In this document: piece after piece, positions 10,067 to 52,371 of the stretch
Position numbering within the stretch: the stretch's first letter is position 1
Layout: each line of letters opens with the position of its first letter
Notes under the pieces: model-generated
The model's input: only the letters and a program-made list of their open reading frames with translations
Databases searched by the model: none
What the model was told of the DNA's origin: nothing
Program-made: the position numbers and the translations under genes
DNA from: Micromonospora sp. CCTCC AA 2012012
Lineage (GTDB): Bacteria; Actinomycetota; Actinomycetes; Mycobacteriales; Micromonosporaceae
Reading direction: 5' to 3'
NCBI RefSeq assembly: GCF_040499845.1
Contig: NZ_CP159342.1
Location: forward strand, 5,704,001 to 5,768,000
Length of the DNA: 64,000 nt

Positions 10067-10121
10067 GGCCGCTGACCTGGTGTCACCCAGGCAGCGGGCG
10101 CGGGCACGGTGGATCGCATGA
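10044..10121 (+). CDS. 25-residue leader peptide coupled to the integrase
   Basis: A very short frame starting ATG after GAGGAG and ending TGA at 10119-10121, where the stop overlaps the integrase ATG (ATGA). That spacing is typical of translational coupling and would set integrase output. It also overlaps the candidate arm sites, so integrase binding could shut off its own leader. Not similar to anything I recognise; it could equally be non-translated leader. Confidence 0.3.
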   Translation: MLKDQSLMAADLVSPRQRARARWIA

Positions 10122-22220: not shown

Positions 22221-22256
22221 GCTCGGCTCCTCGTCGGTGAGTTCTCGCGGCACCTC

Positions 22257-26802: not shown

Positions 26803-28935
26803 CTACCGAGGCCTCCCCAACCTGGCCAGCGCGTCCTGCCGGCGCTGCAGCGCGGACAGGTCGTGCACCGTGAAATTCGCCTGCTGCGGGTAGACGGCGA
26901 TCCGGTTGTCGTTGGTCACCGACGGGCCCGGCCCCCAGCTGCCCTGGGGCACGACTCGCTGTCCGTACCAGCGGGCCGCCGTGGCGAGGATGTCCAGCGA
27001 CCGGTCCCGGTTTCCGTTGCGCGGGATGAAGGCCTCGCCGCCGGTGGCGGGCTCGGCGAACGCGTACCGGGCCGGGGAGACGGCGCTGTAGACGGCGGCC
27101 TCGCGGAGGTTCACCAGGCCGTCCTGGGCGTGCTCGTAGACGCCACCCCACCGGTTCTTCAGCGACGTGCCGCCGGGCAACTTCAGGTCGCCGTTGGACT
27201 TGTAGTAGACGCCGACCGTGATGTTCTTGCTGTTGATCTTCCCGAGGCCGGCTTGCACCCGGGCGATCGCCGACAGGGCCTGCTCGCTGTTGACCGACAC
27301 GGTGCGCTGGATGTTCGGGATGCCGAACAGCCGGTCGGCCAGGGCCTTCGCCTTACCGGCCTCCATGCCCATCGCGTCGGCGGCCTTGAGGAACGCGGCC
27401 CGGCCCCGCTCGGTCGCCGCGTTCGCGGCTTCCTGGGAGCCGGTCTCGGCCAGGGTCGCGTCCCGCTTGCGGTACGTGGTCTTGACGATCGCGTCCAGGG
27501 CGGCCTGGTTGGCCCGGCCCTTCTCGGTGCCGTCGGACAGGGCCTGGCCGTTGCGCTTCACCGACTCGGTCGCCGCGTCCACGGCCGCCTCGAAATCCCG
27601 GTTCGCCGCCCGGGCGTCGAGGGTCTTGCTGGACAGCTCGTCGAGGATGTCGCGCAGCGACCGCACCTCGAAGGTCGCCTCGGTGGCGGCGCCGTCGACC
27701 TTGAGCAGGCCACCCTGGATCTTCTGGCCGGCCCCGTCGCCGGCGTCGCCGCCGGCGTCGAGGGCGTCCTTCAGCTCGTGCATCCGGTCTCGGTTGTGCT
27801 CGACCTGGTCGCCGATGACCGGCAGCCACCCGTACAGCGAGTACGTGAAGTCGGCCGCGGCCACGCCGGCCTCGACGAGCCACCGGTAGAGGGTGGACAT
27901 GCCGTCGACCAGCATCGTCACCCCGGCGATGGTGTCCTCGACGGCCAGGAAGATCAGGTGGATGGCGGAGGCGCCCTCGTCGGCGTGGTCGGCGACTGTG
28001 GACAGCAGCTCGGACAGCTCCCGGCCGACGCCAGGCAGGTCGTTTTCGACGACGGCGATGATCGGACCGGCGGCCGCCGCGGCGTCGGCGATACCGGGGG
28101 CGAGCTCGCGGACGAAGCCAGCCACCCCACGCGCCAGGGGCTCGACGTAGCGGGAGGTGGAGGCGAACACGTCGTCGATGTCGCCGGCGACGTCCTCCCA
28201 CGCCGAGCGGAGGATCCCGATCCCGGCGATGGCCGGCTGCACGAACCGGCTGCCGGAGTCCTCCAGGTCACCGAGGACCGCGTCGGCGAGGTCCTTCCCG
28301 GCCGCCTGGACCCGCTGGTCCTTCGCGGCGATCTTCAGCCCGCCGACCACCCCGCCGACGCCGACCCCACCGACGATCGCGCCGGAGATCGTGGCGCCGA
28401 TGACGGCGGCGGCCGGCACCGCGATGATGCCGCCCATCGCGGCGCCGGCCGGGCCGAGCGGCGCGTTGGACAGCATCCCCTTCAGCTTGTCGATGATCTG
28501 CGTGCCGACCGAGTCGGGGATGACGTCCTCGACGTCCTTGAAGTCGATCAGCTTGCGGATGCTGGTCTGCTGACGCAGCTTGCCCTGCTCGGCGGACAGC
28601 TTCTCGCTGAGCTTCGCCCGTTCCGCCTCATCGGAGGTGCGGGCGATCTCCCGAGCCAGTTCCCGGACGCTACTGGCGGTCTCGTCGATCTGCCGGTCGA
28701 GCCGGGCCGCGTCGTCGCGCAGCGACCCCAGCTTGCGGCCGGCGTCGCGGGCGGAGTCACCGAGCCCGTCGGTGGACTCGCTGGCCCGCTCGGTGCCGGT
28801 GGCGACGTCCTTCGCGCTGTCGGCGACGTCGTCGAGGCTGTCCTCCAGGCGCTGCGCCGCGCCGGTCGCGTTGTCCATGCCGCGCACGAAGGGCTGCTCG
28901 TCGACGTCCAGGCCGACCTTCGTCGTACGCGACAC
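26803..28935 (-). CDS. Tail tape measure protein
   Basis: 710 residues: long coiled-coil start (RELAREIARTSDEAERAKLS), a Gly/Ala-rich hydrophobic stretch (IIAVPAAAVIGATISGAIVG), more helix, and a C-terminus with FAEPATGGEAFIPRNGNRDR, the E-A-F-I-P motif frequent near the ends of tape measures. Sets tail length; at 710 residues a tail of roughly 100 nm would be expected by the usual ~0.15 nm per residue rule. Confidence 0.92.
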   Translation of the reverse strand: MSRTTKVGLDVDEQPFVRGMDNATGAAQRLEDSLDDVADSAKDVATGTERASESTDGLGDSARDAGRKLGSLRDDAARLDRQIDETASSVRELAREIARTSDEAERAKLSEKLSAEQGKLRQQTSIRKLIDFKDVEDVIPDSVGTQIIDKLKGMLSNAPLGPAGAAMGGIIAVPAAAVIGATISGAIVGGVGVGGVVGGLKIAAKDQRVQAAGKDLADAVLGDLEDSGSRFVQPAIAGIGILRSAWEDVAGDIDDVFASTSRYVEPLARGVAGFVRELAPGIADAAAAAGPIIAVVENDLPGVGRELSELLSTVADHADEGASAIHLIFLAVEDTIAGVTMLVDGMSTLYRWLVEAGVAAADFTYSLYGWLPVIGDQVEHNRDRMHELKDALDAGGDAGDGAGQKIQGGLLKVDGAATEATFEVRSLRDILDELSSKTLDARAANRDFEAAVDAATESVKRNGQALSDGTEKGRANQAALDAIVKTTYRKRDATLAETGSQEAANAATERGRAAFLKAADAMGMEAGKAKALADRLFGIPNIQRTVSVNSEQALSAIARVQAGLGKINSKNITVGVYYKSNGDLKLPGGTSLKNRWGGVYEHAQDGLVNLREAAVYSAVSPARYAFAEPATGGEAFIPRNGNRDRSLDILATAARWYGQRVVPQGSWGPGPSVTNDNRIAVYPQQANFTVHDLSALQRRQDALARLGRPR

Positions 28936-29370: not shown

Positions 29371-29867
29371 AAAGGGAGGTCGACCTCGCGGACGTTGAGG
29401 TTCCAGCACTTGCGCCACCAGGTGCGCCACTGCTGCACGGCCAGCCGCCCGCTGTCCAGGTCGAGCAGCTGCTCCCACGTGGCCTCGGCCAGCGCCGGAC
29501 TGACCGTCGACCGCCGCACCAAGGCGGGCAGGAACGTCGCCCGGTTGACGCCCATCCGCAGGTCGTCCTCGTCGTCGGTGCGCGCCGGGTGTTCCTCGAC
29601 GAGCTCGTTCCACCGCTTCGGGGTCAGCCCCCGCAGCTGGAACTCGACGGTGGCCGCCTCCACCTGGTCGCGCAGCTCCTCCATCCGCTGCGCCAGCGCG
29701 GTGGTGCCGTCGCCGGCGACCCGCGGGTCAGCGGCCGAGCGGGCTTTCGCCTCGGCGAGCTCCCGGCCGAGCTGGGTCCACTGCGCGACCAGGTCGAGGC
29801 GGGTGCACACCTTCATGGTGTCCTCGGGCAGCCGCGCGCCGGTCAGCAGCGCGTCGACGTCGGTCAC
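29301..29867 (-). CDS. Tail assembly chaperone (G-like)
   Basis: 188 residues, helical, with DTMKVCTRLDLVAQWTQLGR, a tail-chaperone-like start, and LQQLLDL-type helices (WEQLLDLDSGRLAVQQWRTW). Lies between tail tube and tape measure, the standard place for the gpG/gpGT pair, and contains the frameshift heptamer 22 codons before its stop. GTG 29867 overlaps the previous stop. Confidence 0.8.
   Translation of the reverse strand: MTDVDALLTGARLPEDTMKVCTRLDLVAQWTQLGRELAEAKARSAADPRVAGDGTTALAQRMEELRDQVEAATVEFQLRGLTPKRWNELVEEHPARTDDEDDLRMGVNRATFLPALVRRSTVSPALAEATWEQLLDLDSGRLAVQQWRTWWRKCWNLNVREVDLPFSVAGLLTSPTSGSDSGSPEPSA
29370..29376 (-). promoter_or_regulatory. Programmed -1 frameshift heptamer C_CCT_TTC
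   Basis: On the coding strand the zero-frame codons CTC CCT TTC contain CCCTTTC in the canonical X_XXY_YYZ phase, so tRNAs on CCT and TTC can re-pair with CCC and TTT. It joins the G-like frame to the long -1 frame ending at 28942. Confidence 0.75.
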
Positions 29868-30376
29868 GCCACCACCGCCACGTCCATGTGCACCACGTTG
29901 GTGACGAACAGCCGCTGCGTGGCCGTGTGCACGCTGTTGGCGCCGTTCCAGTTCTTCATCGGCTCGCCGGCCTCGATCGGCCACACGTCGACGATGTCGG
30001 CGACCGCGTAGGCCTGCGTCGACGGCACCCCGTAGCGGGGCACGATGAAGCCCTTGACGCCCTCGGCGAGGGTCAGGTACGCCTCGTTGTTGTCCGGGCT
30101 GGCCGGGTTGTGCACGTACACGACCGTCAGCGACTTGGACTTGCGGCCGGGCTTCTCGAAGTCCTGGACGGTGGCGATCCGGCTGTCGGTGACGGTGGCC
30201 TGCTCGCCGCCCGGCTGCCAGCCGTCGCCGGTGATGTAGCCGTGCAGGTCCAGCGACGTCACCGCGTTGAGCTCGGTCAGCTTCGGTGCGGACGGGTCGG
30301 TGAGCGACACCACGAACTTGAAGGCCAGGGTGCCGTCGCTCTTGACGGAATCGGGCAGCTGCAGCGGCGACGTCAT
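29864..30376 (-). CDS. Major tail tube protein
   Basis: 170 residues, beta-rich (FKFVVSLTDPSAPKLTELNA, LDLHGYITGDGWQPGGEQAT, KSLTVVYVHNP). Position between connectors and tail chaperone and the length are typical of siphovirus tube subunits in actinobacterial phages. Confidence 0.8.
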   Translation of the reverse strand: MTSPLQLPDSVKSDGTLAFKFVVSLTDPSAPKLTELNAVTSLDLHGYITGDGWQPGGEQATVTDSRIATVQDFEKPGRKSKSLTVVYVHNPASPDNNEAYLTLAEGVKGFIVPRYGVPSTQAYAVADIVDVWPIEAGEPMKNWNGANSVHTATQRLFVTNVVHMDVAVVA

Positions 30377-33107: not shown

Positions 33108-34292
33108 TTACGCCTTGAGGTTGACGATCTTGCCGTGCTTGCGCTCGTTGCCGTATCCGAGCCCGACCTCGCCGTAGATCTGGTTCTTGTCGTAGGCGCC
33201 GGTCTTGGCCAGGGGCTCTTCGAACATGTGTCCCTTGCCGGGGACCTCCAGGTAGACCGGCTTGCACTCCTCGAGGGAGACGACCTGCACCACGTCGGCC
33301 GGCATGTGCCGGTTGAGCATGATGTTGAGGATCCCGAAGTCGGTCTCGATCCGGTTGACGGTCACACCGCCGACGGTGGAGATCTCCTTGGTGACGTAGC
33401 CGGCCGCCACGTAGGCGTTGGTGATCGCCAGCTTCTGGGACGCGCTGACCATGATCGTGGCGGTCTCGGACTGCATGATGCCGCCGTTGTTGAAGACGGT
33501 CATCAGCAGCGCGTCGACCATGGTCTTGGTGAGGGCGACGCCCTTGGCCCAGACCACGGTGCCGTCGACGGCGATATTGACCGCCGCGCCGCCCTTGGTC
33601 AGCGAGACGCTGAAGGTGTTCGCCGAGCTGGCCACCACGTAGTACACGTCGGTGGTGGTCAGCGGGGTGGCGGTGCCGACCGACGTGAACCGGACCGAGT
33701 CGCCGTTGGCCAGGCCGTGGGCGGTCAGGGTGATCAGGTCGGTCGCGGCGGCCGCGGTGCCGGTGGCGGTGGCGCCGCCGGCGGCGTCGACGACGTTGGA
33801 CACCGTCGCGGCGAGGATGCCCCGGGTCTTGCGGGCAGTCAGGTTGTCCGCCGGCAGCTGGTAGATGCCGTTGATGAACGACCACTCGACGTCCCGGGCG
33901 ATCTGCTGCAGCATCAGCTCGGTCTGCCAGTCCAGCTCGTCGACGACCGGGTTGGTCGCGCCGCCGGTGGCCAGCCCCGCCAGCCGGCCGGTCGCGGCCC
34001 GCTTGGTGTAGCTGACGCCGACGGTCTCGTGGTGGATCTGCGTGACGTTCTTCTTCTGCCCGCGGACCCGGTTCTGCGGGGTCGGCGCGTCCTGGCCCTC
34101 CAGGGCCGTGTTCTGACCGGCGGCGCGCAGGTCGTACTCCGACCATTCGAACTCGACGTCGGTGGTCTGCCCGCCGCCGGTCAGCCCGCCGATCGCCGAG
34201 AAGAACGGCGTGTCGGTCGGGGTGAGCAGGTGCAGGATGCCCGTGTAGTTGGGCAGGTTGTAGGTGGTGCCGAGCGCGGTGATACCAGCCAT
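33108..34292 (-). CDS. Major capsid protein (SU10/DUF5309-like)
   Basis: 394 residues. N-terminus GTTYNLPNYTGILHLLTPTD then TPFFSAIGG, ending with KTGAYDKNQIYGEVGLGYGN ERKHGKI, which is characteristic of the SU10-type/DUF5309 HK97-fold capsid proteins. Between about residues 175 and 235 an extra beta-rich block (LTAHGLANGDSVRFTSVGTA ... TFSVSL) interrupts the fold, probably a surface-exposed domain. Confidence 0.88.
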   Translation of the reverse strand: MAGITALGTTYNLPNYTGILHLLTPTDTPFFSAIGGLTGGGQTTDVEFEWSEYDLRAAGQNTALEGQDAPTPQNRVRGQKKNVTQIHHETVGVSYTKRAATGRLAGLATGGATNPVVDELDWQTELMLQQIARDVEWSFINGIYQLPADNLTARKTRGILAATVSNVVDAAGGATATGTAAAATDLITLTAHGLANGDSVRFTSVGTATPLTTTDVYYVVASSANTFSVSLTKGGAAVNIAVDGTVVWAKGVALTKTMVDALLMTVFNNGGIMQSETATIMVSASQKLAITNAYVAAGYVTKEISTVGGVTVNRIETDFGILNIMLNRHMPADVVQVVSLEECKPVYLEVPGKGHMFEEPLAKTGAYDKNQIYGEVGLGYGNERKHGKIVNLKA

Positions 34293-35809: not shown

Positions 35810-36868
35810 TCATCGGATGTAGCCGAACCGCTTGAGCAGTCGGAGCGCTTCGGCCTGGTCGTCGCCGGCGGCGGCGAGGATGCTCTCGGGCATCAGCCGG
35901 GGAGTGCGGGCCTCCCGGTACCGGCCGCCGTCCTTGACCCCTCGCTCCCGGGCGCCGAGCCGGACGCCGGCCAGGCCGCGGGTGGTGATGCCCTCGGTGG
36001 TGGTGTAGACCTGCCGGCCGTACACCGCGCGGGTGGCGAGCTGGCCGCGGTCGCGGCCGCCGCGCAGCATCCGCGCCTCGTCGGCGGTGATGCGGGCGCC
36101 GGCCGGTGTCAGCCCGTACGCGCCGCGGCGGGCGTTGACGACCTGGCTGATGTCGGCGCCGAGGCGGATGGCCGCGGCGCCGGCCTTGGTGAACTGCCGG
36201 TCCTGCTCTTCTGCGCTCAGGCTGTCGAACCAGGCCCGAGGGTTCGTGGCGATCGCGTCGACGGTGTCCTCGGCGGCGGGGACGTGGACGCAGTCGCAGC
36301 AGGGGTGCCGGTCGAATGCCTCGGACAGCTTGTAGCGGCGCCCGGCGAGGACCACGCAGCGGCCGCAGGTGGTGCCAACGACCATCCGCACGTAGTCGTC
36401 GACGCCACGGACGGCCATCGCGGTGACGTCGGCGACCCGGCCGGCGTCGGCGACCTGGGTACGCACCGCCGTCTCCAGGGCGGCGTACCCGCCGGCGAGA
36501 GCCCGCCGGGTGTCGACGCCGTCGCCGATCGCGGTCAGCGCGGTGACGGCCGGCTGGTAGAGCAGCGACGCCAGGGGCCGCCCGTCGGAGGCGACGCCGG
36601 CGAGCGCGGCCGCCACCACGGTCGCCCGGGGTGCCGGCGTCACGCCCTGGGCGGCGAGCACCGCGTCGAGGTAGGTGTCCGCGGTGATCGCCGCGGCGTA
36701 CTGCGCCGCGGTGGCCACGGGCACCAGGTCGGCCAACTGGGTGGTCCAGCTGCGGGCGATGGCGTCGGGGTCGACGCGCGCCCACAGCTGACGGGACACC
36801 GTGACCAGCCGGTCGACGAGCCGGCGCCGGCGGCGGTGGTGCTCGCGGGCGACCTGCTCAGCCGACAC
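35810..36868 (-). CDS. VG15/MuF-like minor capsid protein
   Basis: 352 residues. Helical N-terminal ~150 residues with RRRLVDRLVTVSRQLWARVD, then GTTCGRCVVLAGRRY and RHPCCDCVHVPA (Cys/His cluster), then TPAGARITADEARMLRGGRD. This is the arrangement of VG15-type proteins that sit on the portal inside the head. Overlaps the portal stop by 11 bases. Confidence 0.85.
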   Translation of the reverse strand: MSAEQVAREHHRRRRRLVDRLVTVSRQLWARVDPDAIARSWTTQLADLVPVATAAQYAAAITADTYLDAVLAAQGVTPAPRATVVAAALAGVASDGRPLASLLYQPAVTALTAIGDGVDTRRALAGGYAALETAVRTQVADAGRVADVTAMAVRGVDDYVRMVVGTTCGRCVVLAGRRYKLSEAFDRHPCCDCVHVPAAEDTVDAIATNPRAWFDSLSAEEQDRQFTKAGAAAIRLGADISQVVNARRGAYGLTPAGARITADEARMLRGGRDRGQLATRAVYGRQVYTTTEGITTRGLAGVRLGARERGVKDGGRYREARTPRLMPESILAAAGDDQAEALRLLKRFGYIR

Positions 36869-38366
36869 CGGCCGGCACCGGCTCGGGCGCTGGGGCCGGC
36901 GCGGTTGGTGGCACCGGTGGCTCGACCGGGGCTGGCTGGCCGCCCATGCCCATGTTGATGATCTCCCGGACCGGGTCCTGTTGTGCGGCCGCGTCGTCCT
37001 CGGCCTGCATCCGTCGGATCTGGCCCTGGGTGTAGCCGAGGTCCTCGCGGGCCTGCCGCTTGGTGATGATCGGCTCGTCGCTGCCGAACAGTTTCCGGAC
37101 GGCGTCGGCGGCCTGCGCCCGGGTCGGGGTGGCCGGGTCCTGCCAGATGGTTTCCAGCCGCTTGGCCTGCGGGTCCCAGTCGCCGTCCTGCAGCCGGCGC
37201 ACGTGCCGGTTGACCCGCTTGTACGGGCCGGACATGGCTTTCTGCCGCCGCTCGGCCCGCTTGATCAGCCGGGCCTCGGCCGCCCGCCACGCCTCCGCGC
37301 TGGCCGGGGTGTCGGTGACCACTCCGAACGCGGTCGGCGGCAGGCCGACCAGGGCGGTGGCGTGCTTGGCCAGCTGCGTCAGGGACTGGTGGAAGTTGGC
37401 CAGGCTGGACGCGGCGAACTCGTGGGCCTTGATGCCGCCGCCGTCGGAGTCCTCACCGCCGCTGCCTTCCAGGGTGAGCAGCTTGCCCATGATGACCTGC
37501 AGCGCGGACTGCTTCTGGCCCTTGTCGTCGACCAGGTCGTCCTCACCGATGCCGAACAGCGCGCGCAGCGGGATCGCGTGGAACTCGGCGGCCACCATCA
37601 TGTCGCTGGCCAGCTTGTTGGCGGCGTGCGACAGCGACAGCAGCGGGATGGTCAGTTCCGACTTGCCGTACCGGTCGGCCAGCCGGCCCCGGTTGGTCAG
37701 CGGCGTGACGAGGACCTCGCCGACGTTGTGCACGTCCCGGCCGGTCTCCCGCCAGCCCTGCGGCCCCCGGTCGTACCAGACGGTGTAGTTAGGCATGTAG
37801 AGGGTCGCGTACTCCTCGGGCAGCTTGATCAAGCTGTCCGGGTCCTCCACCCAGCGGCGCAGCGCCGCCCGCGGCTGCCGGGTGCGGGGGTCGATGTCGG
37901 CGTACATCTCCAGCGGCGACTCCACGGTCACCAGCGGGGTGTCCTCGTCGTCCTCGTTGGTGCCCACCGCCAGGTACGACCGCTTCATCACCAGGGCGTC
38001 GAGGCGTCCGAGCTGCGCCTCCTCGTCGAGGTCGTTGTCCTGCCACACTCGCATCAGGTTCTTGTCCGCCGTCGCCGACGCGAGCTCCGCCGGCGCGACG
38101 TCCGGATCGGGCCGCTCGTCGTCCTCCGGATACCGGAAGCCCAGCGGATCGAGACGTTCCTCGAGCGGGTCGACCGCGAGCATCGGCCACCCGAGGGACA
38201 CGGCCTGGAGGCGGTCGCCGACCTCCCGCAGGATCTCCGGGTGGATGTAGTGCAGCGGCGCGCTGCCCTCGTAGAGGGCGTTGAGCTCTTGCAGCTGCGG
38301 CTTGTCCCGGTCGTGCCGGTTCGCCAGGTGGGTGACCCAGCCCAGGTCATCGGACGGCAGCGCCAC
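36858..38366 (-). CDS. Portal protein (SPP1 gp6-like)
   Basis: 502 residues. YEGSAPLHYIHPEI-type start (LNALYEGSAPLHYIHPEILR), VDPLEERLDPLGFRYP, LTNRGRLADRYGKSEL and TPASAEAWRAAEARLIKRAE are typical of actinobacterial phage portals that form the dodecameric DNA gate. Just downstream of the large terminase, as usual. Confidence 0.92.
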   Translation of the reverse strand: MALPSDDLGWVTHLANRHDRDKPQLQELNALYEGSAPLHYIHPEILREVGDRLQAVSLGWPMLAVDPLEERLDPLGFRYPEDDERPDPDVAPAELASATADKNLMRVWQDNDLDEEAQLGRLDALVMKRSYLAVGTNEDDEDTPLVTVESPLEMYADIDPRTRQPRAALRRWVEDPDSLIKLPEEYATLYMPNYTVWYDRGPQGWRETGRDVHNVGEVLVTPLTNRGRLADRYGKSELTIPLLSLSHAANKLASDMMVAAEFHAIPLRALFGIGEDDLVDDKGQKQSALQVIMGKLLTLEGSGGEDSDGGGIKAHEFAASSLANFHQSLTQLAKHATALVGLPPTAFGVVTDTPASAEAWRAAEARLIKRAERRQKAMSGPYKRVNRHVRRLQDGDWDPQAKRLETIWQDPATPTRAQAADAVRKLFGSDEPIITKRQAREDLGYTQGQIRRMQAEDDAAAQQDPVREIINMGMGGQPAPVEPPVPPTAPAPAPEPVPAGVG

Positions 38367-38369
38367 GGG

Positions 38370-40013
38370 TCACCTCCTGACGATGATCTGCTTGCGTTTC
38401 TTGCGTTTCCAGCCGCCCTTGGCGAGGGCGTCCAGGCGGGCTCTCCAGGACAGGCATCCGGCCATGGCCAGGTCGATGTACTTCGTCGAGTCCGGCCGCA
38501 CCTTGTAGATCGTCCAGAGCGGGGTCTCGTCGTCGTCGCGGATCTTCAGGTCGCCGCGCACCGAGTTGCCGATGTGCTCGGCGTACGTCGTGTCGCCGTT
38601 GTGGGTGAGCTCGCCGGAGGTCTGCGCGGTCCGGTAGGCGCGCATCGCCTGGCCGATCTGGCGGGGCCGGTTGGTGTACCACTCCAGCACCCGACGCTCT
38701 CCCCACCGGCCTGACCAGCGGGCCACGGCGGACTCGAAGCGCGGCGGGTCGGCGTACACCAGCCGCACCGCGTAGAGGTCCATCGCCTCGGTCAGGACGC
38801 CGTCGACGTCGTCGTCGGTGACCTCCCAGCCCTCGGCGTCGTCGGGGCGCACCCAGTAGCGCAGTGGCCACTGGAAGCCGGTCTCGATGTGCGTGGCGAT
38901 GAAGCCGACGGCGTCGCGCCAGCGGGCCCCGTCGAAGCCGATGGTGATCGGCTCGCCGTGCTCGATCCGGACCTCGCGCCGGGCGAGGGTTTCCCACCGC
39001 GCCGGGTCGAAGGCGTTGCGCTCGGCCGAGCGCCGGCGGTTGAGCCACACCCGCTGGAAGTACATCTTGTCGGTGTCGGGCTGCTGATACAGCGACGCGA
39101 TCGACTCGACCTGGCCCTCGAAGTCCGGCCACGCCGCGATCGCCGGCCCGGACGCCTCTCGGATCGCCGCCTTCAGCTGCTCCCGGTCCTCCAGGTCCTC
39201 GTCGTCGCGCCAGGACGCCTCCCGGTGGAAGAAGAACAGCGACGGGTCCCGGGCCTTGCCGGCGGCGATCATCTCGGCGTACTGGTGGGTGTCCTCCGCG
39301 CAGGAGCCCTGACCCTCGCCGTAGGTGGTGGTGGTCTCCAGCTCCCACGCGTCCGCGAGCACCCGCTTGGGCAGGTTGTTCCGCATGGTCTGCCGGGCGT
39401 CCTTGAGCCGCGGCAGGAGCATGCGGTGCGTCTCGTCGAAGTGCTGGAAGGTCGTGCGAGCACCGTCGGCCGCCGAGGGCGACCCGGCGACCGCCTCTGC
39501 CTTGCCCTCCCCGTCGATGCGGGTGATGTGCTCCTTGCCCGAGTCGAACAGGTCTGCGTCCGGGCCCTCGGTGCACATCACCAGCAGCGCCCCGTACGCC
39601 AGCTCCTCGGTCTGCTCCTCGGTGTAGGCCAGCATCGGGATGTACGGGTCGGTGACCGGCGCGCCGACCGGCTGCCACACCCCGTCGACCAGGTGGAAGC
39701 CGGCCGCGCGGACCGGCGCTTCCGGGTGCAGCTCCGCGTACGCGACCCACGCCGCGAGCTCCGTCTTCGCGGTGCCCTTGCGCAGGCTGATCGCGGCCCG
39801 CTTGAAGCGCCGGCGCCCGGCCCGGGGATGCCCTCGCGGGTACACCTCGTACGCCCGGTAGAGCAGCGCCCGCTTCTCCACGTCGATGCTGGCCGGCCGG
39901 CCGCGCAGGTCGCCCGGGCCGTGGATGGCCCGCTCTTCGAGGAAGTCGCACAGCTGCGGGCCGAGGCTCGGCCAGGGTTGCTCATCGAGGGGCGGGACGA
40001 CGAAGACGCTCAC
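38370..40013 (-). CDS. Terminase large subunit
   Basis: 547 residues. ATPase Walker A-like LRKGTAKTELAAW (about 70-82) and Walker B with FQHFDETHRM; nuclease half with GFDGARWRDA, YADPP and DLAMAGCLSWRA carrying metal-binding aspartates. It cuts and pumps phage DNA into the prohead. Overlaps terS by 4 bases. Confidence 0.92.
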   Translation of the reverse strand: MSVFVVPPLDEQPWPSLGPQLCDFLEERAIHGPGDLRGRPASIDVEKRALLYRAYEVYPRGHPRAGRRRFKRAAISLRKGTAKTELAAWVAYAELHPEAPVRAAGFHLVDGVWQPVGAPVTDPYIPMLAYTEEQTEELAYGALLVMCTEGPDADLFDSGKEHITRIDGEGKAEAVAGSPSAADGARTTFQHFDETHRMLLPRLKDARQTMRNNLPKRVLADAWELETTTTYGEGQGSCAEDTHQYAEMIAAGKARDPSLFFFHREASWRDDEDLEDREQLKAAIREASGPAIAAWPDFEGQVESIASLYQQPDTDKMYFQRVWLNRRRSAERNAFDPARWETLARREVRIEHGEPITIGFDGARWRDAVGFIATHIETGFQWPLRYWVRPDDAEGWEVTDDDVDGVLTEAMDLYAVRLVYADPPRFESAVARWSGRWGERRVLEWYTNRPRQIGQAMRAYRTAQTSGELTHNGDTTYAEHIGNSVRGDLKIRDDDETPLWTIYKVRPDSTKYIDLAMAGCLSWRARLDALAKGGWKRKKRKQIIVRR

Positions 40014-40736: not shown

Positions 40737-40916
40737 CTACCTCCCCGGCGGTACTGCTGACCTGGGGCCTTGGGGGTCACCCCCCACCCCTCCGGCGTTC
40801 ATCACTCTGCGTGACATTCGCGAGGGGGGCGTCTGGTACCAGCGTCGGGCTTGCTCGACGATGCGTGCCGCTCGTTCGGCGTCGGCCTGCCTCGGGATGA
40901 ACAGTTCATCGGGCAT
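40737..40916 (-). CDS. Small hypothetical protein between HNH and terS (59 aa)
   Basis: ATG 40916 lies 5 bases after GGGAGG inside the end of the HNH gene, overlapping its stop by 11 bases. The N-terminal half is helical and charged (ADAERAARIVEQARRWYQ). Support is the ribosome site and overlap; no family recognised. Confidence 0.5.
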   Translation of the reverse strand: MPDELFIPRQADAERAARIVEQARRWYQTPPSRMSRRVMNAGGVGGDPQGPRSAVPPGR

Positions 40917-41301
40917 GCCAGCCTCCCGGCTGCTCGGCGGTGGTGTGCTTGCTGTGGCATCGGCCGCACAGGCCGCGGCCGCGGCGCGGGTCGTTGGGGT
41001 CGAGGCCTGCGGCGACCAGGTCGCGTCGGTCGCGGGGCCAGTGGTCGGCGTGCCGGGACGGGCGTAGGCACTGGGCGCCGTGGCCGTGGCCGTCGTCGGT
41101 GCACACGCACAGCGGGTTCTTCAGCAGGACCTGGCGGCGGAAGCGCCGCTCGTGCCGCCGGTCGTATCCCCGTTCCCGCGATGTACCCCGGACCTGCTCG
41201 GCCCGGGCGATGCAGGCCGGGCACCGGCCCGACGGCACCGGCTCGATGCAGCCCGTCCCGTCCGGGCCCGCACCCGAGCAGATCTTCCACGCCCTCGGCA
41301 T
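40906..41301 (-). CDS. HNH endonuclease (packaging-associated)
   Basis: 131 residues. Two zinc-binding Cys pairs (CIEP/CPAC) and an HNH core: RHADHWPRDRRDLVAAGLDP with N-D-P, then LCGRCHSKHT. An HNH gene beside the terminases is typical of cos-type HK97-like phages, where it assists terminase cutting. Start ATG 41301 or, in frame, the GTG 12 bases upstream. Confidence 0.85.
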   Translation of the reverse strand: MPRAWKICSGAGPDGTGCIEPVPSGRCPACIARAEQVRGTSRERGYDRRHERRFRRQVLLKNPLCVCTDDGHGHGAQCLRPSRHADHWPRDRRDLVAAGLDPNDPRRGRGLCGRCHSKHTTAEQPGGWHAR

Positions 41302-41401
41302 CGGCCCCTCCACGACGAACGCCCCGGACGGAGGGCCGGGGCGTTCGCTGGGCTGCGGGGCTCGACGCCCTGCGGCCTGCCGCGTGCAACAGGTAGATCA
41401 T

Positions 41402-41483: not shown

Positions 41484-42491
41484 TCACCCCTGGGCGGCGG
41501 CTGCCTTCCGGGCCCGATCGGCAGCCCGCCGAGCCCGTTCCTCCTCGTCTCGCTGGCGCTGCTCGGCGATCTGGTCGAGCAGGTTCAGGACGTCCCCGAA
41601 CTTATAGCGCGGCCGCTGCCACTCGTCGACGTCGAGCAGCAGCGGGCCCTCGACTCCGTCGTCCAGTGCGATCCGCGCCGCGACCAGGCGGCCGCGCTGG
41701 GCGAGGGCGCGCAGCTGCCCGGCGGTGCAGGGCCGGCCGAGCCGGGCGGCGGCGGTGGCCAGCTGCGTCGCGGTGCCGAGGACGTCGCGGGCCTCGTCGA
41801 GCAGCCACCGTACGCGGGGTCCGGTCTGGTGGGTGGTGTGGCAGCCGGGGCAGCGGACCCAGGTGACGCCGGGCCAGGCGTACAGGTCGGTCGGGCACGG
41901 GCGGTCCGGGTCGCCGTCGATCGGGGTGGCGCAGGTGCCGGCGTACCAGCGGTCCGCCGGGTTCTCGATGATCCGCTTGACGGCGTTCGCCGCGCCGAGC
42001 AGCTCTTCGGCGGCGTCGGCAGCATCGGGCTGGCGGCGGAGCCAGTGCAGGTGGTCGACGACGAACTGGGCGGCGGCCGCGACCGGGTGCTCGGGGCGGC
42101 GGTCGCGGATCACGTCGCACGACGGGTGGCCGCACCGGCCGGGCAGGGCTGCCCAGCCGGCGCCTGGGCACAGCGGCCCGATGGCGCGGGCACGCCGGCG
42201 CGGCAGCGGCACGCCCCGGGCGGTCGCGATGTGGTCCATCCAGGTGACCACGACGTGCGCGGCGGCCCACGCGGCCGCAGAGGCGTCGAGGTCGACGGGG
42301 ATGGGCGGCTCGGCGGAGCGCGGGCCGTTCGTCGCGCCGTAGCGGGCCTGCCGGCTGACGTTGACGTCGGGCTCGCCAGCGAGGGTCACCATCTCCCGCA
42401 GCGCGAGGCCGACCGGCCGGTAGCAGGCGGGGCAGACGTAGCCGCCGGTCGGGTCGGGCTTCTGGCACCACTGGCACCGGTGCGCGGTCAC
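41484..42491 (-). CDS. Zinc-finger and HTH protein of unknown function
   Basis: 335 residues. N-terminal CQWCQKPDPTGGYVCPAC zinc ribbon, a central domain with CGHPSCDVI, a second CPTDLYAW ... CPGCHTTH ribbon and a C-terminal HTH-like segment (CTAGQLRALAQRGRLVAARI). Common in actinobacterial prophages and integrative elements; probably DNA-binding, possibly replication or late-gene control. GTG start overlaps the previous stop. Confidence 0.7.
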   Translation of the reverse strand: MTAHRCQWCQKPDPTGGYVCPACYRPVGLALREMVTLAGEPDVNVSRQARYGATNGPRSAEPPIPVDLDASAAAWAAAHVVVTWMDHIATARGVPLPRRRARAIGPLCPGAGWAALPGRCGHPSCDVIRDRRPEHPVAAAAQFVVDHLHWLRRQPDAADAAEELLGAANAVKRIIENPADRWYAGTCATPIDGDPDRPCPTDLYAWPGVTWVRCPGCHTTHQTGPRVRWLLDEARDVLGTATQLATAAARLGRPCTAGQLRALAQRGRLVAARIALDDGVEGPLLLDVDEWQRPRYKFGDVLNLLDQIAEQRQRDEEERARRAADRARKAAAAQG

Positions 42492-43561
42492 AGGTCCTCC
42501 TCAGCGGCGGGTGGGGTGGCGGGGACAGCTCCGGGTGGCCAGACGTAGTGAGGCTCAGGTGGCGGCAGGGCCGGGGGACGGGACCGCCGGTGGTAGATGT
42601 CCGGGGAGTCCGGGGGCCGGGCCGGCTGGGTGGGGCGAGGGCTGGGATCGGGGTGATCACGGCGGTGCCCGACCCGACCCAGCTGGGTACCCCCCTCGAC
42701 GCCCGCGGGCCGCTGTTCGTGCTGGTCGCCGCCGTGCTGCGGATACACCTGTCCTGTCGACTCGTCGTTTGGATCACCGTTTCGATCACCGTTGGGGTCG
42801 GTGACGGGATCAGTGATCGGATCAGCGCCCGATCGGTGATCGGTGGCTGTTTCGTCGGTGATCCGTTGGTGGTCGGGGAGGTCGTTGAGCACCTGGTCGC
42901 GGGCGGCCCACGCGCCGCGTTGTTGCGGGGTGGGCTCGGGCAGCAGGACCATGTCAGCCTCGTAGGGGGTGCGGTGGCCCTTGTACTCGTTGCAGCGGCC
43001 GCAGCAGACGACGAGGTTCGCGCCGTCCTCGCCGGCGGCCTTGTCGGGGTCGACGTGGTCGTAGGTGAGGACCTTGCGGCGGTCCCGGGCGCGGCCGGCC
43101 TTGGCCGACAGCGGTCCGGATCGGCAGTACCGGCAGGCGCCGCCGTCGCGGGCGTACACCATCGCCTTGAGCGGCGCGGAGCGCAGGTCTGCCCGCTGGG
43201 CGCGGTTGCGCTCGTACTCGGTGCGGGACGGGTTGCGGCGCAGGAAGTTATGGATCCGGTAGGCGTAGCCGTCGATCCACGTGTCGCCGAGGCAGGGGCA
43301 GTCGTCGTCCGGCCGGTGCAGCAGAGGCTGCTCGTCGAGCACCGGCGTGCACAGCAGGTCGAGCCAACGGCGGCGGCGGGCGTACCGGATCGCGGTCTGT
43401 TCGGTGAGGTAGCCGTCCTTCTTGATGTGACTGGCCTTGGCCTTGAGGCGGCAGTAGGCCGCCTGGAGGTGGTCGACGGCGTTAGCGTCGCCGCCGGCGA
43501 GGACGTCCCACACCGCTTCGTCCGCGAAGGTGTCAGATTCGAGCCAATACGGCATCAGCAC
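42488..43561 (-). CDS. HNH endonuclease with N-terminal phage replication-like domain
   Basis: 357 residues. Residues 1-115 (YWLESDTFADEAVWDVLAGG, CRLKAKASHIKKDGYLTEQT) resemble N-termini of actinophage early proteins. Next an HNH domain: RDGGACRYCRSGPL, LTYDHVDPDKAAGEDGANLV, VCCGRCNEYKGHRTP. The last third is low-complexity, with DP repeats encoded by GATC-rich DNA (see 42772-42863). Role could be recombination, DNA processing or replication; not certain. GTG 43561, or ATG two codons later. Confidence 0.78.
   Translation of the reverse strand: MLMPYWLESDTFADEAVWDVLAGGDANAVDHLQAAYCRLKAKASHIKKDGYLTEQTAIRYARRRRWLDLLCTPVLDEQPLLHRPDDDCPCLGDTWIDGYAYRIHNFLRRNPSRTEYERNRAQRADLRSAPLKAMVYARDGGACRYCRSGPLSAKAGRARDRRKVLTYDHVDPDKAAGEDGANLVVCCGRCNEYKGHRTPYEADMVLLPEPTPQQRGAWAARDQVLNDLPDHQRITDETATDHRSGADPITDPVTDPNGDRNGDPNDESTGQVYPQHGGDQHEQRPAGVEGGTQLGRVGHRRDHPDPSPRPTQPARPPDSPDIYHRRSRPPALPPPEPHYVWPPGAVPATPPAAEEDL
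42772..42863. repeat. Cluster of GATCACCG repeats inside the HNH gene
   Basis: GATCACCG occurs at 42772 and 42784 and its complement CGGTGATC at 42834-42841 and 42856-42863, with degenerate copies between. It encodes a Thr/Asp/Pro-rich linker. Could be coding low complexity or a protein-binding cluster. Confidence 0.4.
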
Positions 43562-43923: not shown

Positions 43924-44253
43924 TCAGCTCCTCGGCGGCGGGTTGAGGAACTCGGTGGTCGGGGCGAGCGCCCAGGCGATCGAGTCCTGCCGGAACTCCG
44001 CGGCGAGGCCAGCGAGGATCGCGCGAAGCCGGTCGACGGGCGCCGGGTCAGCGGGCAGTTGCAGGGCCCAGCAGGCGTTCTGCCATGAGTCGGCGGGCAG
44101 GGACATCCACTGGCCGTGGACACCGCCGCCCGCGTACTCGGACGCCTCCTGCACAGCGAGAGCGACCCGCCAGACGAAGTCCGCCCACTCCCGCTGGGTG
44201 AGCTTGTCGTCGGAGTTGCCGATGCTGATGTACGCCACGGGTGTCGAGGTCAT
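43924..44253 (-). CDS. Hypothetical early protein (109 aa)
   Basis: Starts VAYISIGNSDDKLTQREWAD and continues as a helix-rich small protein with FVWRVALAVQEASEYAGGGV, a pattern of small beta-alpha-beta phage proteins of unknown role. Overlaps the upstream gene by 4 bases. Confidence 0.65.
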   Translation of the reverse strand: MTSTPVAYISIGNSDDKLTQREWADFVWRVALAVQEASEYAGGGVHGQWMSLPADSWQNACWALQLPADPAPVDRLRAILAGLAAEFRQDSIAWALAPTTEFLNPPPRS

Positions 44254-44969
44254 GCCGTCTCTCCAGGGGTGTCGGTGGTCGTCGTGACATCCAAGTGACG
44301 GGCGGGTCGGGTCCGGGTGCCGAGCCTGCGCCACCAAGGCGTCAGCGGGGCCGGTCCGGCGGCCGCCGCAGGCTTCGCCGGAGGCTGTGGCGTGGCGGGT
44401 GCGGCGGGCAGCTCCCGGGCTGCCGGTCCGGACTGGGCGGGCCTCGGTGCCCGGTCGCAGTGCGGTCGGTGCAGCCGGTGCCCGGCCGGCACAGACGTCG
44501 AGAGGCCGCACGCGCAGTACGGACCCCATCGGCCGGTCGACGTCGGCTGGCCGAGCGTCGGCTCCCGGCCGTCGGTCATGTTGGCCAGCTCGCCGAGCAG
44601 GTGCGCGGCCAACTCGAAGGCGCTCGGCCCGGCCGGGGCGGCGTTGACGATCAGCGCGGCGACCAGGCTGGTCACCAGCCCACTGCGCAGGTCGGAGCCG
44701 ATCGCCTGCCGCAGCTTGGTCTCCAGGTGGCGGTTGGCGGCCTGGACGGTGGCCAGTTCCTCGGCCAGTCGCAGGCGCTCCGCGTTCGCACGGTCGGCCT
44801 GCTCGCGGTACCGGTCGCGGTGCGCGTCGGCGGTCGTGACCGCCTGGTGCAGCTCGTCGACGCGGCCCCACGCGTACGTCAGGCCCTTCTGCTGCTCCTT
44901 ACACACGCGGGCCAGGGTGAGCTGGTGGTCGAGCAGCGCGTCGACGGCCCGGCTGTCGGTGTGGGTCAC
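44250..44969 (-). CDS. Coiled-coil protein with Cys/His cluster (239 aa)
   Basis: Residues 1-95 are a long charged helix (RDRYREQADRANAERLRLAE), followed by a small helical domain, then YCACGLSTSVPAGHRLHRPH, which could bind zinc, and a Pro/Ala-rich basic end. No family recognised. Confidence 0.65.
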   Translation of the reverse strand: MTHTDSRAVDALLDHQLTLARVCKEQQKGLTYAWGRVDELHQAVTTADAHRDRYREQADRANAERLRLAEELATVQAANRHLETKLRQAIGSDLRSGLVTSLVAALIVNAAPAGPSAFELAAHLLGELANMTDGREPTLGQPTSTGRWGPYCACGLSTSVPAGHRLHRPHCDRAPRPAQSGPAARELPAAPATPQPPAKPAAAAGPAPLTPWWRRLGTRTRPARHLDVTTTTDTPGETA

Positions 44970-45299: not shown

Positions 45300-46109
45300 T
45301 CACGGGGTCACCCGGGCTGCGGCGATCGAGCACTGCGGGAAGTGCAGGTAGGCGGTTTCTCCGCACTCGGGGCACACGTATGGCTCATCGCTGGGCTCGG
45401 CGGCGAGAGCGTCAGCGAAGTCGTCCGGGTCGTACTCGCGGTCGATGTGGCCGGGGTTGACGCCGTGCTTGACGAGCGTCTCGACTAGCCAGTCCTGCCA
45501 CTCGCCGTTGAGGGCTCCCGCCTCGGGCGTCAGATCCCAAATGAGGTTGGGGGCGTCGGCCGGGTCGGCGAGCGCTGCGGCGGTGGTGGTGGCCGCTCCG
45601 GCGGCCAGGATGAGGTAGCCGAGGTCGAGGCGGGACCCGGCATGCGGGCCAGCCGCCAGGTGAGCGTTGATCTCGGTTTGGAAGACGGCGTAGGCGGCGA
45701 GGGCTTCAGCGGCGTAGTGCCGGATCCAGGCGTCGCGGGTGGCGGTGTCGCGGGTGGCGGGCTGGGGGGCGAGGCGGTGAGCGGCCTCGAACGGCGTCTC
45801 GGTGGTGGGGGGCAGCTCGTCGGAGTCCGCTGCGGTAGCACCCGCGCCTCGGGTCAGCTCGTTGACTCGGGTCTTCAGCCGCTCGATCTCGACGCGGGCG
45901 GCGTCCAGCTCGGTGTTGGTGGTGCCGTCGGGCCAGGTCAGGCCGATGCCAGCTTTCGCGATCAGGTCGGCGACCTCGTCGGCGAGCGACGCGTCCAGCT
46001 CGGCGGTGTCGTACGCCTGCCCGATGTGCGCCCACACTTCGGGGGCCGTGACGAAACGGGCGTTGCTGACCATCAGGTCGGCGGCGATGGTCTTCGGGTC
46101 GAGGTTCAT
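45300..46109 (-). CDS. Hypothetical early protein with C-terminal zinc motif (269 aa)
   Basis: Helical protein with a short coiled coil (ELDAARVEIERLKTRVNELT, about 68-87), an alanine-rich helical middle and a C-terminal CPECGETAYLHFPQC cluster. Directly downstream of the replication-initiator candidate, the place where a helicase loader would be found in lambda-like modules, but no ATPase motif is present. Confidence 0.62.
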   Translation of the reverse strand: MNLDPKTIAADLMVSNARFVTAPEVWAHIGQAYDTAELDASLADEVADLIAKAGIGLTWPDGTTNTELDAARVEIERLKTRVNELTRGAGATAADSDELPPTTETPFEAAHRLAPQPATRDTATRDAWIRHYAAEALAAYAVFQTEINAHLAAGPHAGSRLDLGYLILAAGAATTTAAALADPADAPNLIWDLTPEAGALNGEWQDWLVETLVKHGVNPGHIDREYDPDDFADALAAEPSDEPYVCPECGETAYLHFPQCSIAAARVTP

Positions 46110-46119
46110 GGCAGTCTCC

Positions 46120-47037
46120 TCAGGCCGTGTGAGCGCGGAGCGGGATCACCGAGGCCAGCTCGTGGCCGTCGTGATCGGGGTCGGGTAGTTCCTGGGGGCG
46201 GATCTCGCCGGCGAGGACTCGGCGAGCGAGGTCCGCGCCCGGGCCGCGGCGGGGGGCCTGCCGGGCGGCCAGGTCTAGGCGCCAGGCCGGCACCGGCCGG
46301 TCGTCGGCCGCCGTCGGGGGCAGAGCCGGGCGGGCGGCGGTGCGGACGGCCGTCAGGTGGTCGATGAGGTCGTCGTGGGTCAGGCTCCGGACGTACGCGC
46401 CGAGCGAGCGGGGCGGCTTCCGGGCAGCTGCTCGGATCTGCTCGATGACCTTCGTTGCCTCGTCGTCATCCACGCTCAACCGGTCGGCGACGTAGGCGAC
46501 GGTCCCACCGCGCTGAGGATGATGTTGAGAGGTACTTCTGAGAGAGGAGTTGCGTTCCCCCGTGGGAACTACCGTGGTTCCCTCCTGGGAACCACCGGTC
46601 TCGGAAAGGGAACTAGCGGCGGCCGGAAGGGAACTACCAGCGGCGGCCGGTAGTTCCCCGGTGGGAACCACGCCGGGTTCGGTAGTTCCCTCCGGGCTGT
46701 CGTCGGTAGTTCCCTCCGGGGTACCAGCGGCGGCAGCTGGGATGGCCAGCCGGTAGAGCGTCGGTCGGCGCGGGATGACCCGGACGGGCACCAGCCAGCC
46801 CTTCTCGACCAGGAGCTGCTGGGTGGAGGTAACGAGCGCCCGCTTGCCGATGCTGGCCTGATCCATCGCCCGGTCGTAGGTCAGCCAGGACAGGTCGGCC
46901 GCCGGCGTGCGGTCGCCCTGGCCGTCGCGGACGTGCCGGGCATAGGCGAGGGCGAGGAGCTTGGCGCGCGGTGGCAGGGACGAGTCCCAGACCGCGTCCT
47001 GGTAGGTGTCCGCGTACCAGCGGACCGGGGCGGTCAT
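46120..47037 (-). CDS. Winged-helix protein, phage replication initiator (O-like) candidate
   Basis: 305 residues. Residues ~10-100 look like the winged helix of phage replication proteins: LPPRAKLLALAYARHVRDGQ, LSWLTYDRAMDQASIGKRAL, VTSTQQLLVEKGWLVPV. A 90-residue low-complexity linker (EGTT, GSSLPAAA repeats) follows, then a C-terminal domain with DDDEATKVIEQIRAAARKPP and SLGAYVRSLTHDDLIDHL. A DNA repeat cluster lies exactly in the linker-coding part, as lambda ori lies in gene O. Initiator function is inferred from this architecture. Confidence 0.65.
   Translation of the reverse strand: MTAPVRWYADTYQDAVWDSSLPPRAKLLALAYARHVRDGQGDRTPAADLSWLTYDRAMDQASIGKRALVTSTQQLLVEKGWLVPVRVIPRRPTLYRLAIPAAAAGTPEGTTDDSPEGTTEPGVVPTGELPAAAGSSLPAAASSLSETGGSQEGTTVVPTGERNSSLRSTSQHHPQRGGTVAYVADRLSVDDDEATKVIEQIRAAARKPPRSLGAYVRSLTHDDLIDHLTAVRTAARPALPPTAADDRPVPAWRLDLAARQAPRRGPGADLARRVLAGEIRPQELPDPDHDGHELASVIPLRAHTA
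46564..46714. repeat. Iteron cluster GGTAGTTCCC, candidate replication origin
   Basis: Five exact copies of GGTAGTTCCC or its complement (46564, 46629, 46649, 46681, 46705) and four degenerate ones (46576, 46587, 46608, 46663) in 151 bp, in both orientations. They are read in different codon phases (EGTT, GSSL, GELP, VVP), so the conservation is at DNA level. A stretch of only about half G+C follows at 46511-46552. Confidence 0.65.
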
Positions 47038-49189: not shown

Positions 49190-49398
49190 GTGCGCCCACC
49201 ACCCACCCGCTTGCGCGGCTGGCGCTTCGGCGGAACCGACTCGACCAGGCCGAGGACCGGCAGCAGGTCCTCGTTGCCGGTGCGCTCGAGGTAGGCGCGG
49301 GCGTCGGCCTGCCGCTGCTCGCGGTGGATCCGATCAGCCGCGGCGCCGGACACCCGGGCGGTGTCGACGCCTCCGTCGATCATGTCGATCTGGCTCAC
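49186..49398 (-). CDS. Small hypothetical protein (70 aa)
   Basis: GTG 49398 follows AGGAGG. Helical centre (AADRIHREQRQADARAYLER) and a basic tail. Immediately downstream of the GGDEF gene and overlapping it by 4 bases. Confidence 0.58.
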   Translation of the reverse strand: MSQIDMIDGGVDTARVSGAAADRIHREQRQADARAYLERTGNEDLLPVLGLVESVPPKRQPRKRVGGGRT

Positions 49399-49991
49399 GC
49401 TGCCTCCTGATCAGAAAGTCGGTCTCGCAGCCGCACGCGGGGGCGAGGGTGGACCGGACGGTCGTCCATCGACGGGTCGTAGGCGACGAGCGAGCCCTTC
49501 GCGGCGCGCTTGGCGCGGTACATCGCGGCGTCGGCGCGCAGCAGTGTGGTGGCCAGGTCGCCGGGCACCACGTCGGTCATGCCGACGGTGGCGGTGACGT
49601 GCAGCACGGGCGCGCCGGGCACGGGCAGCGGCACCGGCCACCACCGGTCGGGCCCGCCGGGCATCCGGCCGATCACGACCAGCTCGTCACCGCCGAGCCG
49701 AGCGGCGATCGGGTACCCGCACAGGCTGGCGCTGATCGCGGTGAGAACGGCGTCGCCGGCGGCGTGGCCGTAGGTGTCGTTGACGGCCTTGAAGCCGTCC
49801 AGGTCGAGCAGCGCCAGCTTGTAGTTGCCCTGGACCGCCCACCACGCCTCGGCCAGGCCGGCCCGGTTGTAGAGGCCGGTGAGGGGGTCCCGGCGGGCCG
49901 CGTCGAGAGCCTCCTGGAGCTGGCTCTCCAGCTCCGCGACTCGCGCCTGCAGCTGGGCGACCTGCCGGTCGCGCTCCAGCCCGGGCGCCAT
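49395..49991 (-). CDS. Stand-alone GGDEF-domain (diguanylate cyclase-like) protein
   Basis: 198 residues. A short coiled coil (about 8-33) precedes a GGDEF domain: RDPLTGLYNRAG, the metal-binding segment LLDLDGFKAVNDTYGHAAGD (61-80), and active-site loop RLGGDELVVIG with GGDEL at 100-104. Expected product c-di-GMP from GTP. No RxxD inhibitory site precedes the loop, and there is no sensor or membrane domain. A Pro-rich 20-residue insert (GPDRWWPVPLPVPGAPV) follows the loop. ATG 49991 forms ATGA with the upstream gene. C-di-GMP controls actinomycete development via BldD, so a host-directed role is possible. Confidence 0.88.
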   Translation of the reverse strand: MAPGLERDRQVAQLQARVAELESQLQEALDAARRDPLTGLYNRAGLAEAWWAVQGNYKLALLDLDGFKAVNDTYGHAAGDAVLTAISASLCGYPIAARLGGDELVVIGRMPGGPDRWWPVPLPVPGAPVLHVTATVGMTDVVPGDLATTLLRADAAMYRAKRAAKGSLVAYDPSMDDRPVHPRPRVRLRDRLSDQEAA

Positions 49992-50740
49992 CACTGGGCG
50001 ACCTTCACGCCGAGCGCCTTCGCGTGCTGCCGTGCGGCGGCCCGCAGCGCGGTGCGGGCCTTCGCCTTGCTCCGCCCGCAGTCGACCACCACCGGGTCGC
50101 CGCCGCCGTCCGGCCGGTGCCTCACCTTCCAGCCGTCCTCGCGGCTGTAGCGGGCCTCCGCGAGGTGGTCCGCGACCTCCGGGCTGTGGACGGTGTCGAG
50201 GGTGGCGACCGCGAACATCGGCGCGTCGCGGGCGTAGTCGTACTCGACGATCCGGATCTCGGCCGTGCCGTGCGGGCGCAGCGCCGGTCCGGCCGCGTCG
50301 AGCCGCCGGAACCCGGGGATCAGCCACGAGTAGTCCGGGCCGGTCTGGTCGGTCCACACCCGCATCGGCGCGTACTCGCTGGTCTGCTCGACCCGCTCGA
50401 CGGTCTCCCACCGGTTCAACGGCGACACGAACCGCCACCCCTGCCACAGCCGCTTCGCCTGCGGTCGGGTGTCGTCACAGCCCAGGCAGTGCTTCCTGCC
50501 GCCGCAGCTGAGGCAGGTCGGCTCGCGGTCGTGCAGTACCTGGGCGGCCAGGCCGGGCCGGTGACGCAGGACCCGCAGCACCGGCGAGACCCAGTCGGCC
50601 GCGTTCGGGGCGATCTCCGCCACCGCGGACCGCAGCTCCGCCACGGCCTGGTCGAAGTCGTAGTTGCCGTCCGGCAGGTAGGGCAGCTTCTGGTTCGCCT
50701 CGTACTGCCGGGACCAGCCAGCGATATCCACGGTGCTCAC
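49991..50740 (-). CDS. Hypothetical early protein with CxxC zinc motif (249 aa)
   Basis: Contains a CLSCGGRKHCLGCD zinc knuckle (about 80-93), KRLWQGWRFVSPLNRWETVE and a C-terminal beta-rich part ending AAARQHAKALGVKVAQ. No family recognised. GTG 50740 overlaps the stop of the 32-residue gene upstream. Confidence 0.62.
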   Translation of the reverse strand: MSTVDIAGWSRQYEANQKLPYLPDGNYDFDQAVAELRSAVAEIAPNAADWVSPVLRVLRHRPGLAAQVLHDREPTCLSCGGRKHCLGCDDTRPQAKRLWQGWRFVSPLNRWETVERVEQTSEYAPMRVWTDQTGPDYSWLIPGFRRLDAAGPALRPHGTAEIRIVEYDYARDAPMFAVATLDTVHSPEVADHLAEARYSREDGWKVRHRPDGGGDPVVVDCGRSKAKARTALRAAARQHAKALGVKVAQ

Positions 50741-52328: not shown

Positions 52329-52371
52329 CTTGTAAGCGAGATGTCGCCGGTTCGATCCCGGCCGGGGGCTC
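52329..52371 (+). repeat. attR core: 43-bp copy of the tRNA-Thr 3' half
   Basis: Exact copy of 9944-9986; no acceptor or D-arm half precedes it, so it is not a functional tRNA. Marks the right end of the element. Confidence 0.95.

Follow-up and report, generated by a model that had tools for sequence, protein, structure and literature searches.

An iteron-like word cluster inside a putative prophage initiator gene of Micromonospora: a probable lambda-like intragenic replication origin

Initiator genes that contain their own origin are already known, as with lambda O and pSK41 Rep. In lambdoid phages (lambda and the Shiga toxin [Stx] phages P27 and 933W), iterons and an AT-rich tract lie in the middle of the O gene, and extra iterons lengthen the protein (PMC7466680). 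Rep of pSK41, a staphylococcal RepA_N protein of 319 amino acids, has a winged-helix N-terminal domain that binds boxes inside the rep gene, a linker encoded by the origin, and a helical, DnaD-like C-terminal domain; in pPR9-type hybrid Rep proteins, an N-terminal domain with a pfam13730 helix-turn-helix (HTH) was swapped together with the origin, while the C-terminal domain was kept (PMC5703833). The RepA proteins of mycobacteriophages Miko, Rachaly, and Jeeves (320 to 350 amino acids) carry an N-terminal HTH; repA with 171 bp of upstream sequence suffices for Miko plasmids, and the authors suspect an origin within or adjoining repA (PMC7157519). The Streptomyces plasmid pWTY27 has an iteron of GTGGGAAC and TTCCCAC repeats, in both orientations, within a 300-bp noncoding sequence and encodes a RepA of 522 amino acids (PMC3583192). 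We compared these systems with a gene in a 64,000-nucleotide stretch of Micromonospora sp. CCTCC AA 2012012 (contig NZ_CP159342.1, positions 5,704,001 to 5,768,000; hereafter, the window). The gene lies in an intact-looking 42.4-kb prophage integrated at a tRNA-Thr gene, and it probably encodes an O-like phage replication initiator with the origin (iterons plus an AT-rich unwinding element) in its own coding sequence (Table 1).

In the linker-coding part of the gene, nine copies of the word GGTAGTTCCC span exactly 151 bp. Five are exact (46564 and 46629 on the minus strand; 46649, 46681, and 46705 on the plus strand), two have one mismatch (46587 and 46608, both minus), and two have two mismatches (46573, plus; 46663, minus). 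An earlier sequence-only reading of this DNA had reported nine copies, five of them exact and in both orientations, and our recount at 46564-46714 reproduced that figure. The same reading held that the word is kept as DNA and not as peptide, which the present analysis bears out. The words occupy all three codon phases and both strands, and therefore the peptide cannot be their cause. Null sequences that held the protein constant and varied codon choice alone fell short as well. The 8-mers GGAACTAC/GTAGTTCC occur in the gene six times exactly (five in the cluster and one near the 3' end) and 10 times with at most one mismatch; the maxima were two and six, respectively, in 500 within-gene synonymous shuffles and zero and four in 500 codon-usage recodings. 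Across the whole window, the loose count (≤2 mismatches) was only mildly high, at 64 versus a shuffle mean of 43.6 and a largest shuffle of 63, and the signal therefore resides in the clustering. As half-sites, the words often occur in pairs, GTAGTTCC-N6-GGAACYAC, and the pattern GTAGTTCCN5-7GGAACYAC has a single exact match in the 6.73-Mb genome, at 46650-46671 inside the initiator gene. Steps of 21 to 24 bp (about two helical turns) combined with paired half-sites are the form expected of initiator sites.

Twelve further genes, drawn from the same genus, other Micromonosporaceae, and three IMG/VR contigs, were read as DNA, and the word was found in the same linker, exact or with one mismatch. 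Sites numbered 11 in Plantactinospora, 10 in M. pisi, nine each in Micromonospora 15K316 and in genome G342, and five to seven in the other eight genes; one Longispora fulva gene had no exact copy. Not counted in the resulting 13-gene set are L022, which is a piece of the G342 gene, and L026, which repeats the M. pisi gene of L005. In 10 of the 13 genes, the exact count was higher than in any of the 500 within-gene shuffles, and in nine the same held for the count with at most one mismatch. Five genes other than those of the window and G342 have in common a spacing series of 14, 9, 22, and 21 bp, with orientations fixed. At 13 word-bearing loci of 15 to 20 kb, the best 250-bp cluster fell inside the initiator gene in all 12 that have one (L020 has none). 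Genome G342 holds a sister prophage, in which an att sequence stands beside a related early region and five early genes and the initiator match those of the window. All eight gaps between the nine words are identical in the two prophages. Identity between them reached 68/72 at word bases, against 116/165 at other linker positions (P = 1.5e-5) and 362/453 over the remainder of the 690 nucleotides compared (P = 0.0016); third codon positions gave 20/22 versus 37/57 (P = 0.025). On these DNA comparisons, the word is common to several genera and not element specific.

The relatively AT-rich stretch that the sequence-only reading placed beside the cluster proved to be the gene's 50-bp maximum in AT content (48% AT versus a prophage mean of 27.7%). 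This value was attained by 0.5% of the 50-bp windows of the prophage, at 11 places, ten of them besides 46507-46556. In 11 of the 13 genes, the AT-richest 40 bp either overlaps the last words (four genes) or starts no more than 20 bp after them (seven genes); the exceptions are Plantactinospora, where it lies 65 bp after the words, and the IMG/VR gene V27, where it lies elsewhere. An unbroken 16-base run, ACCTCTCAACATCATC, is common to the window and G342 in the AT-rich part. Separately, we spotted by eye a CTCTCTCT tract followed by AGAGAGAG about 40 to 130 bp after the last word at L024, L025, L027, and L005, which would form an inverted repeat with a long loop on the far side of the AT-rich element.

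The open reading frame (ORF) has the 305 codons first reported, and AlphaFold2 predicts a layout of a winged-helix N-terminal domain, consistent with the earlier description of a winged-helix gene, a disordered linker, and a small helical C-terminal domain. Structural comparison of the N-terminal domain listed general winged helices, with no lambda O entry seen among them, and the four-helix C-terminal domain (residues 177-235) gave no convincing fold match. When the PDB was searched by sequence with the family profile, the matches were weak throughout (E ≥ 0.75), and all bore the names DnaK or Hsp70. The family was assessed as 37 member proteins, after omission of the entries P0001 (the window protein) and P0034 (155 amino acids); this number overstates independence, since two pairs (L003/P0013 and L005/P0012) are identical and two more (L002/P0008 and L004/P0017) are overlapping or near-identical. 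At E ≤ 0.1, phrog_391 ("replication initiation O-like") matched 28 of the 37 members, some of them duplicates, phrog_270 ("replication initiation protein") matched 25, and phrog_678 ("O-like") matched 13. Among 10 proteins scanned at E ≤ 0.001, eight matched an initiator profile, over the N-terminal domain, and seven an O-like profile; in P0031, the C-terminal part also matched a profile of DnaD-like loaders. The commonest Pfam match was HTH_36 (PF13730; 12/37 at E ≤ 1, best 3.9e-4), and of the 16 Pfam families matched by at least one of the 37 members at that threshold, none was RepA_N (PF06970). The N-terminal domains are detectably related by BLASTP in 666/666 member pairs, those of the window protein included.

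In the C-terminal parts, 29 of 36 (P0021 dropped) fell into one cluster by single linkage. A segment related to the window's C-terminal domain also occurs in L006 (955-1824) and L032 (1468-1677), joined there to different N-terminal domains and to other linker repeats. Because those repeats did not go beyond synonymous shuffles, the pairing of another N-terminal domain with another word is only suggestive. The L006 linker contains TGTGGATAAC, a DnaA-box-like word.

Taken together, these results make an intragenic lambda-like origin the best-supported reading, because the words are kept at the DNA level in the sister prophage, lie between two predicted domains, and have an AT-rich 3' neighbor, and because 28/37 members of the protein family match an O-like profile at E ≤ 0.1. 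Under a mechanism of this kind, the winged-helix domain would bind the GGTAGTTCC half-sites, often head-to-head about 14 bp apart and recurring every two helical turns or so, and the oligomerized complex would open the AT-rich stretch 46507-46556. The C-terminal domain may then recruit the helicase or primase of the host, because the prophage showed no loader among the ORFs scanned. The lack of a P gene need not bar replication, because repA and its short upstream sequence suffice for Miko.

By analogy, this gene would work on the same plan as lambdoid O and pSK41 Rep, and it may be termed O-like through the profile matches of its relatives. Like lambdoid O genes, it carries iterons and an AT-rich tract inside the initiator gene, and several O-like PHROG profiles match its relatives; unlike them, it has no detectable P-type loader gene, the words of the family stand as half-sites in both orientations with 14/9/22/21 spacing, and the window protein itself falls below profile detection. 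The earlier suggestion of a probable lambda-like origin is supported by the intragenic plan, the O-like family profiles, and conservation at the DNA level; no lambda O/P pair is seen among the ORFs scanned. The protein resembles pSK41 Rep in size (305 versus 319 amino acids) and domain plan but differs in the absence of RepA_N matches among the 37 members, and its C-terminal domain is not evidently DnaD-like. As in pPR9-type Rep, the N-terminal domain and origin appear to behave as a unit, and HTH_36 is the commonest Pfam match of the family; here, however, the N-terminal domain and word are constant while the C-terminal parts diverge, and the reverse swap (L006 and L032) is seen at the protein level only. 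Mycobacteriophage RepA offers a precedent for a single-gene replicon among actinobacterial phage initiators of similar size with an N-terminal HTH. In contrast, those phages are described as extrachromosomal parABS prophages, no repeats are reported for them, and tblastn of the window protein gave no phage match. The GTGGGAAC repeat of pWTY27 resembles the GGTGGGAACC variant at 46649-46673, although this core resemblance may be due to chance; the pWTY27 iteron is noncoding and its RepA much longer.

Several observations weigh against an intragenic origin. The window protein has no Pfam match and no initiator PHROG match at E ≤ 0.1. The genes that failed the shuffle test are all Longispora fulva paralogues (three to four), and the genes of the set are related, so their counts are not independent. 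At conserved amino acids, the excess of unchanged codons in the words is modest (17/19 versus 74/119 over the remaining gene; P = 0.02), and the proportion is also high in the linker outside the words (27/34). The ORFs scanned yielded no loader of the lambda P type. The gene 3' of the initiator (45300-46109), which has no Pfam match and only weak matches to PHROGs of unknown function, is absent from the corresponding stretch of the sister prophage; because it was not matched there, a loader encoded at this position would not be conserved as a component of the unit. Neither GC skew nor skew at four-fold sites, followed along the prophage, switches at 46.6 kb, and no DnaA box occurs within one mismatch between 44 and 49 kb. 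Finally, tblastn with three queries against 50,697 phage and 72,556 plasmid records found no relative; with these queries, therefore, no characterized replicon carries a gene of this family.

Of the other explanations, the words might be operators through which the protein regulates its own or early transcription from inside the gene, with the prophage replicating from another site. This is improbable, as the best cluster lies in the initiator gene at 12/12 loci and neither a fixed AT-rich partner nor O-like profile matches would be expected of an operator. A role of the repeats in partition, copy control, or packaging has a precedent in iteron arrays that act in copy control elsewhere, but we regard it as more improbable still: no ParA/ParB-type or similar gene was matched among the subset of ORFs scanned, and lone copies of the gene in Longispora have no shared neighbors among called genes. 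That the linker is merely of low complexity, its peptide repeats (EGTT and GSSL) yielding DNA repeats as a by-product, is already largely refuted and most improbable of all, for although the linker peptides are themselves conserved and synonymous shuffles do reproduce the repeats of the alternative initiators L006 and L032, they do not reproduce the words of the window, which occur in every phase and on both strands and persist between window and G342 where the spacers diverge. We favor the intragenic origin because it explains together the place and geometry of the words, their AT-rich neighbor, the domain plan, and the profile matches.

Among 300 genomes of the family, seven gave a match at E ≤ 0.001: the source genome, four others with the N-terminal domain, G020 (L006), which shares the C-terminal domain only, and G234 (L007), judged spurious. 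Three of 151 genomes of the genus matched, the source genome and G273 included, and in a phylum sample of 396 genomes, only the source genome did. Two protein searches, in which scores were computed only for the candidates with most shared words, returned five and 34 proteins; named sources were Micromonospora, Verrucosispora, Longispora, Plantactinospora, and one Dormibacteraeota assembly, and one source names the protein from Plantactinospora "Replication protein," which is no more than a label. Single-sequence pattern scans of genomes and viral contigs gave no match. Alignment queries yielded four viral and two genome loci, and a later search found the same four contigs again. A cassette pattern built from distant relatives gave three IMG/VR matches, each on a separate contig in which the gene had been found before, and is visible within the genes themselves. 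None of the top-ranked matches in open-license papers reported this origin or this family, which is weak evidence of absence.

With the plan itself already described, the distinctive part here is one cassette of N-terminal domain plus word, common to several genera and joined to divergent C-terminal parts. In Longispora fulva (G062), the initiator gene occurs on the chromosome in five isolated copies (L012 to L016; genes at L002, L008, L009, L010, and L011), one of which, in L014, was missed by gene calling. They share the gene and about 140 to 160 bp upstream only and have weaker word clusters; the ratio of nonsynonymous to synonymous substitution rates (dN/dS) was 0.21 and 0.29 in the two pairs compared. 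A speculative and rather unlikely extension is that one winged-helix domain and one origin word form a portable specificity cassette that is now dispersed among Micromonosporaceae prophages and other elements and has been combined with divergent domains for recruitment, such that resident copies, including the five Longispora fulva genes under purifying selection, could recognize, fire, or titrate each other's origins. If so, cross-element incompatibility or a domesticated decoy would be expected, and, should one word serve many elements within one host family, prophage cross-talk would be directly testable. Independently of this idea, the analysis assigns a concrete origin and initiator, both open to test, to a prophage with no other recognized replication gene, and the comparative DNA evidence suggests that the lambda-O/staphylococcal-Rep plan operates in this actinomycete family. 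In genera that resist easy engineering, the gene could also provide a compact replicon made of a single gene.

Table 1. Features of the proposed origin and of the prophage that carries it (window coordinates; pLDDT, predicted local distance difference test score)
Feature	Position	Strand	Basis or remark
Gene for 305-amino-acid O-like initiator, containing proposed origin	46120-47037	-	305-codon ORF and relatives
Winged-helix N-terminal domain, residues 6-104	46726-47022	-	AlphaFold2 block, pLDDT 90-96 for residues 11-100
Linker-coding part, residues 108-173, predicted disordered	46519-46716	-	pLDDT <50 in 108-154 and 159-173
Four-helix C-terminal domain, residues 177-235	46333-46509	-	AlphaFold2 block, pLDDT 93-98 for residues 181-230
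Nine half-site words GGTAGTTCCC/GGGAACTACC, five exact; proposed iterons	46564-46714	both	Both orientations
Paired half-sites GTAGTTCC-N6-GGAACCAC	46650-46671	+	
Isolated near copy GGTAGTTCCT	46184-46193	+	Near 3' end of gene
AT-rich stretch, proposed DNA unwinding element	46507-46556		48% AT; 3' of words in gene direction
Left att repeat, prophage left end	9944-9986	+	3' end of tRNA-Thr; 43-bp perfect repeat
Right att repeat, prophage right end	52329-52371	+	43-bp perfect repeat of tRNA-Thr 3' end
Tyrosine integrase of prophage	10109-11125	+	PF00589 over cutoff; phrog_1 E 1e-37
Endolysin	21243-22253		Prophage gene
Tape-measure-like protein	26803-28935		Prophage gene
Major tail protein	29864-30376		Prophage gene
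SU10-type capsid protein	33108-34292		Prophage gene
Portal	36858-38366		Prophage gene
Terminase	38370-40013		Prophage gene

As the sequence-only reading had remarked of helicase, loader, and primase, no such family was matched among the prophage ORFs scanned, which were a subset. A "DNA polymerase" PHROG match was rejected, being short, collagen-like, and located in the endolysin. An ARAGORN call of tRNA-Gly at 44384-44463, on the strand opposite to the enclosing gene (44250-44969), is probably a false positive. Two HNH endonuclease genes lie close to the terminase on the minus strand (40906-41313 and 42488-43561), the second of which is also present in the G342 sister prophage. The prophage further encodes a GGDEF (diguanylate cyclase) domain protein at 49395-50447 on the minus strand (PF00990, E 5e-18).
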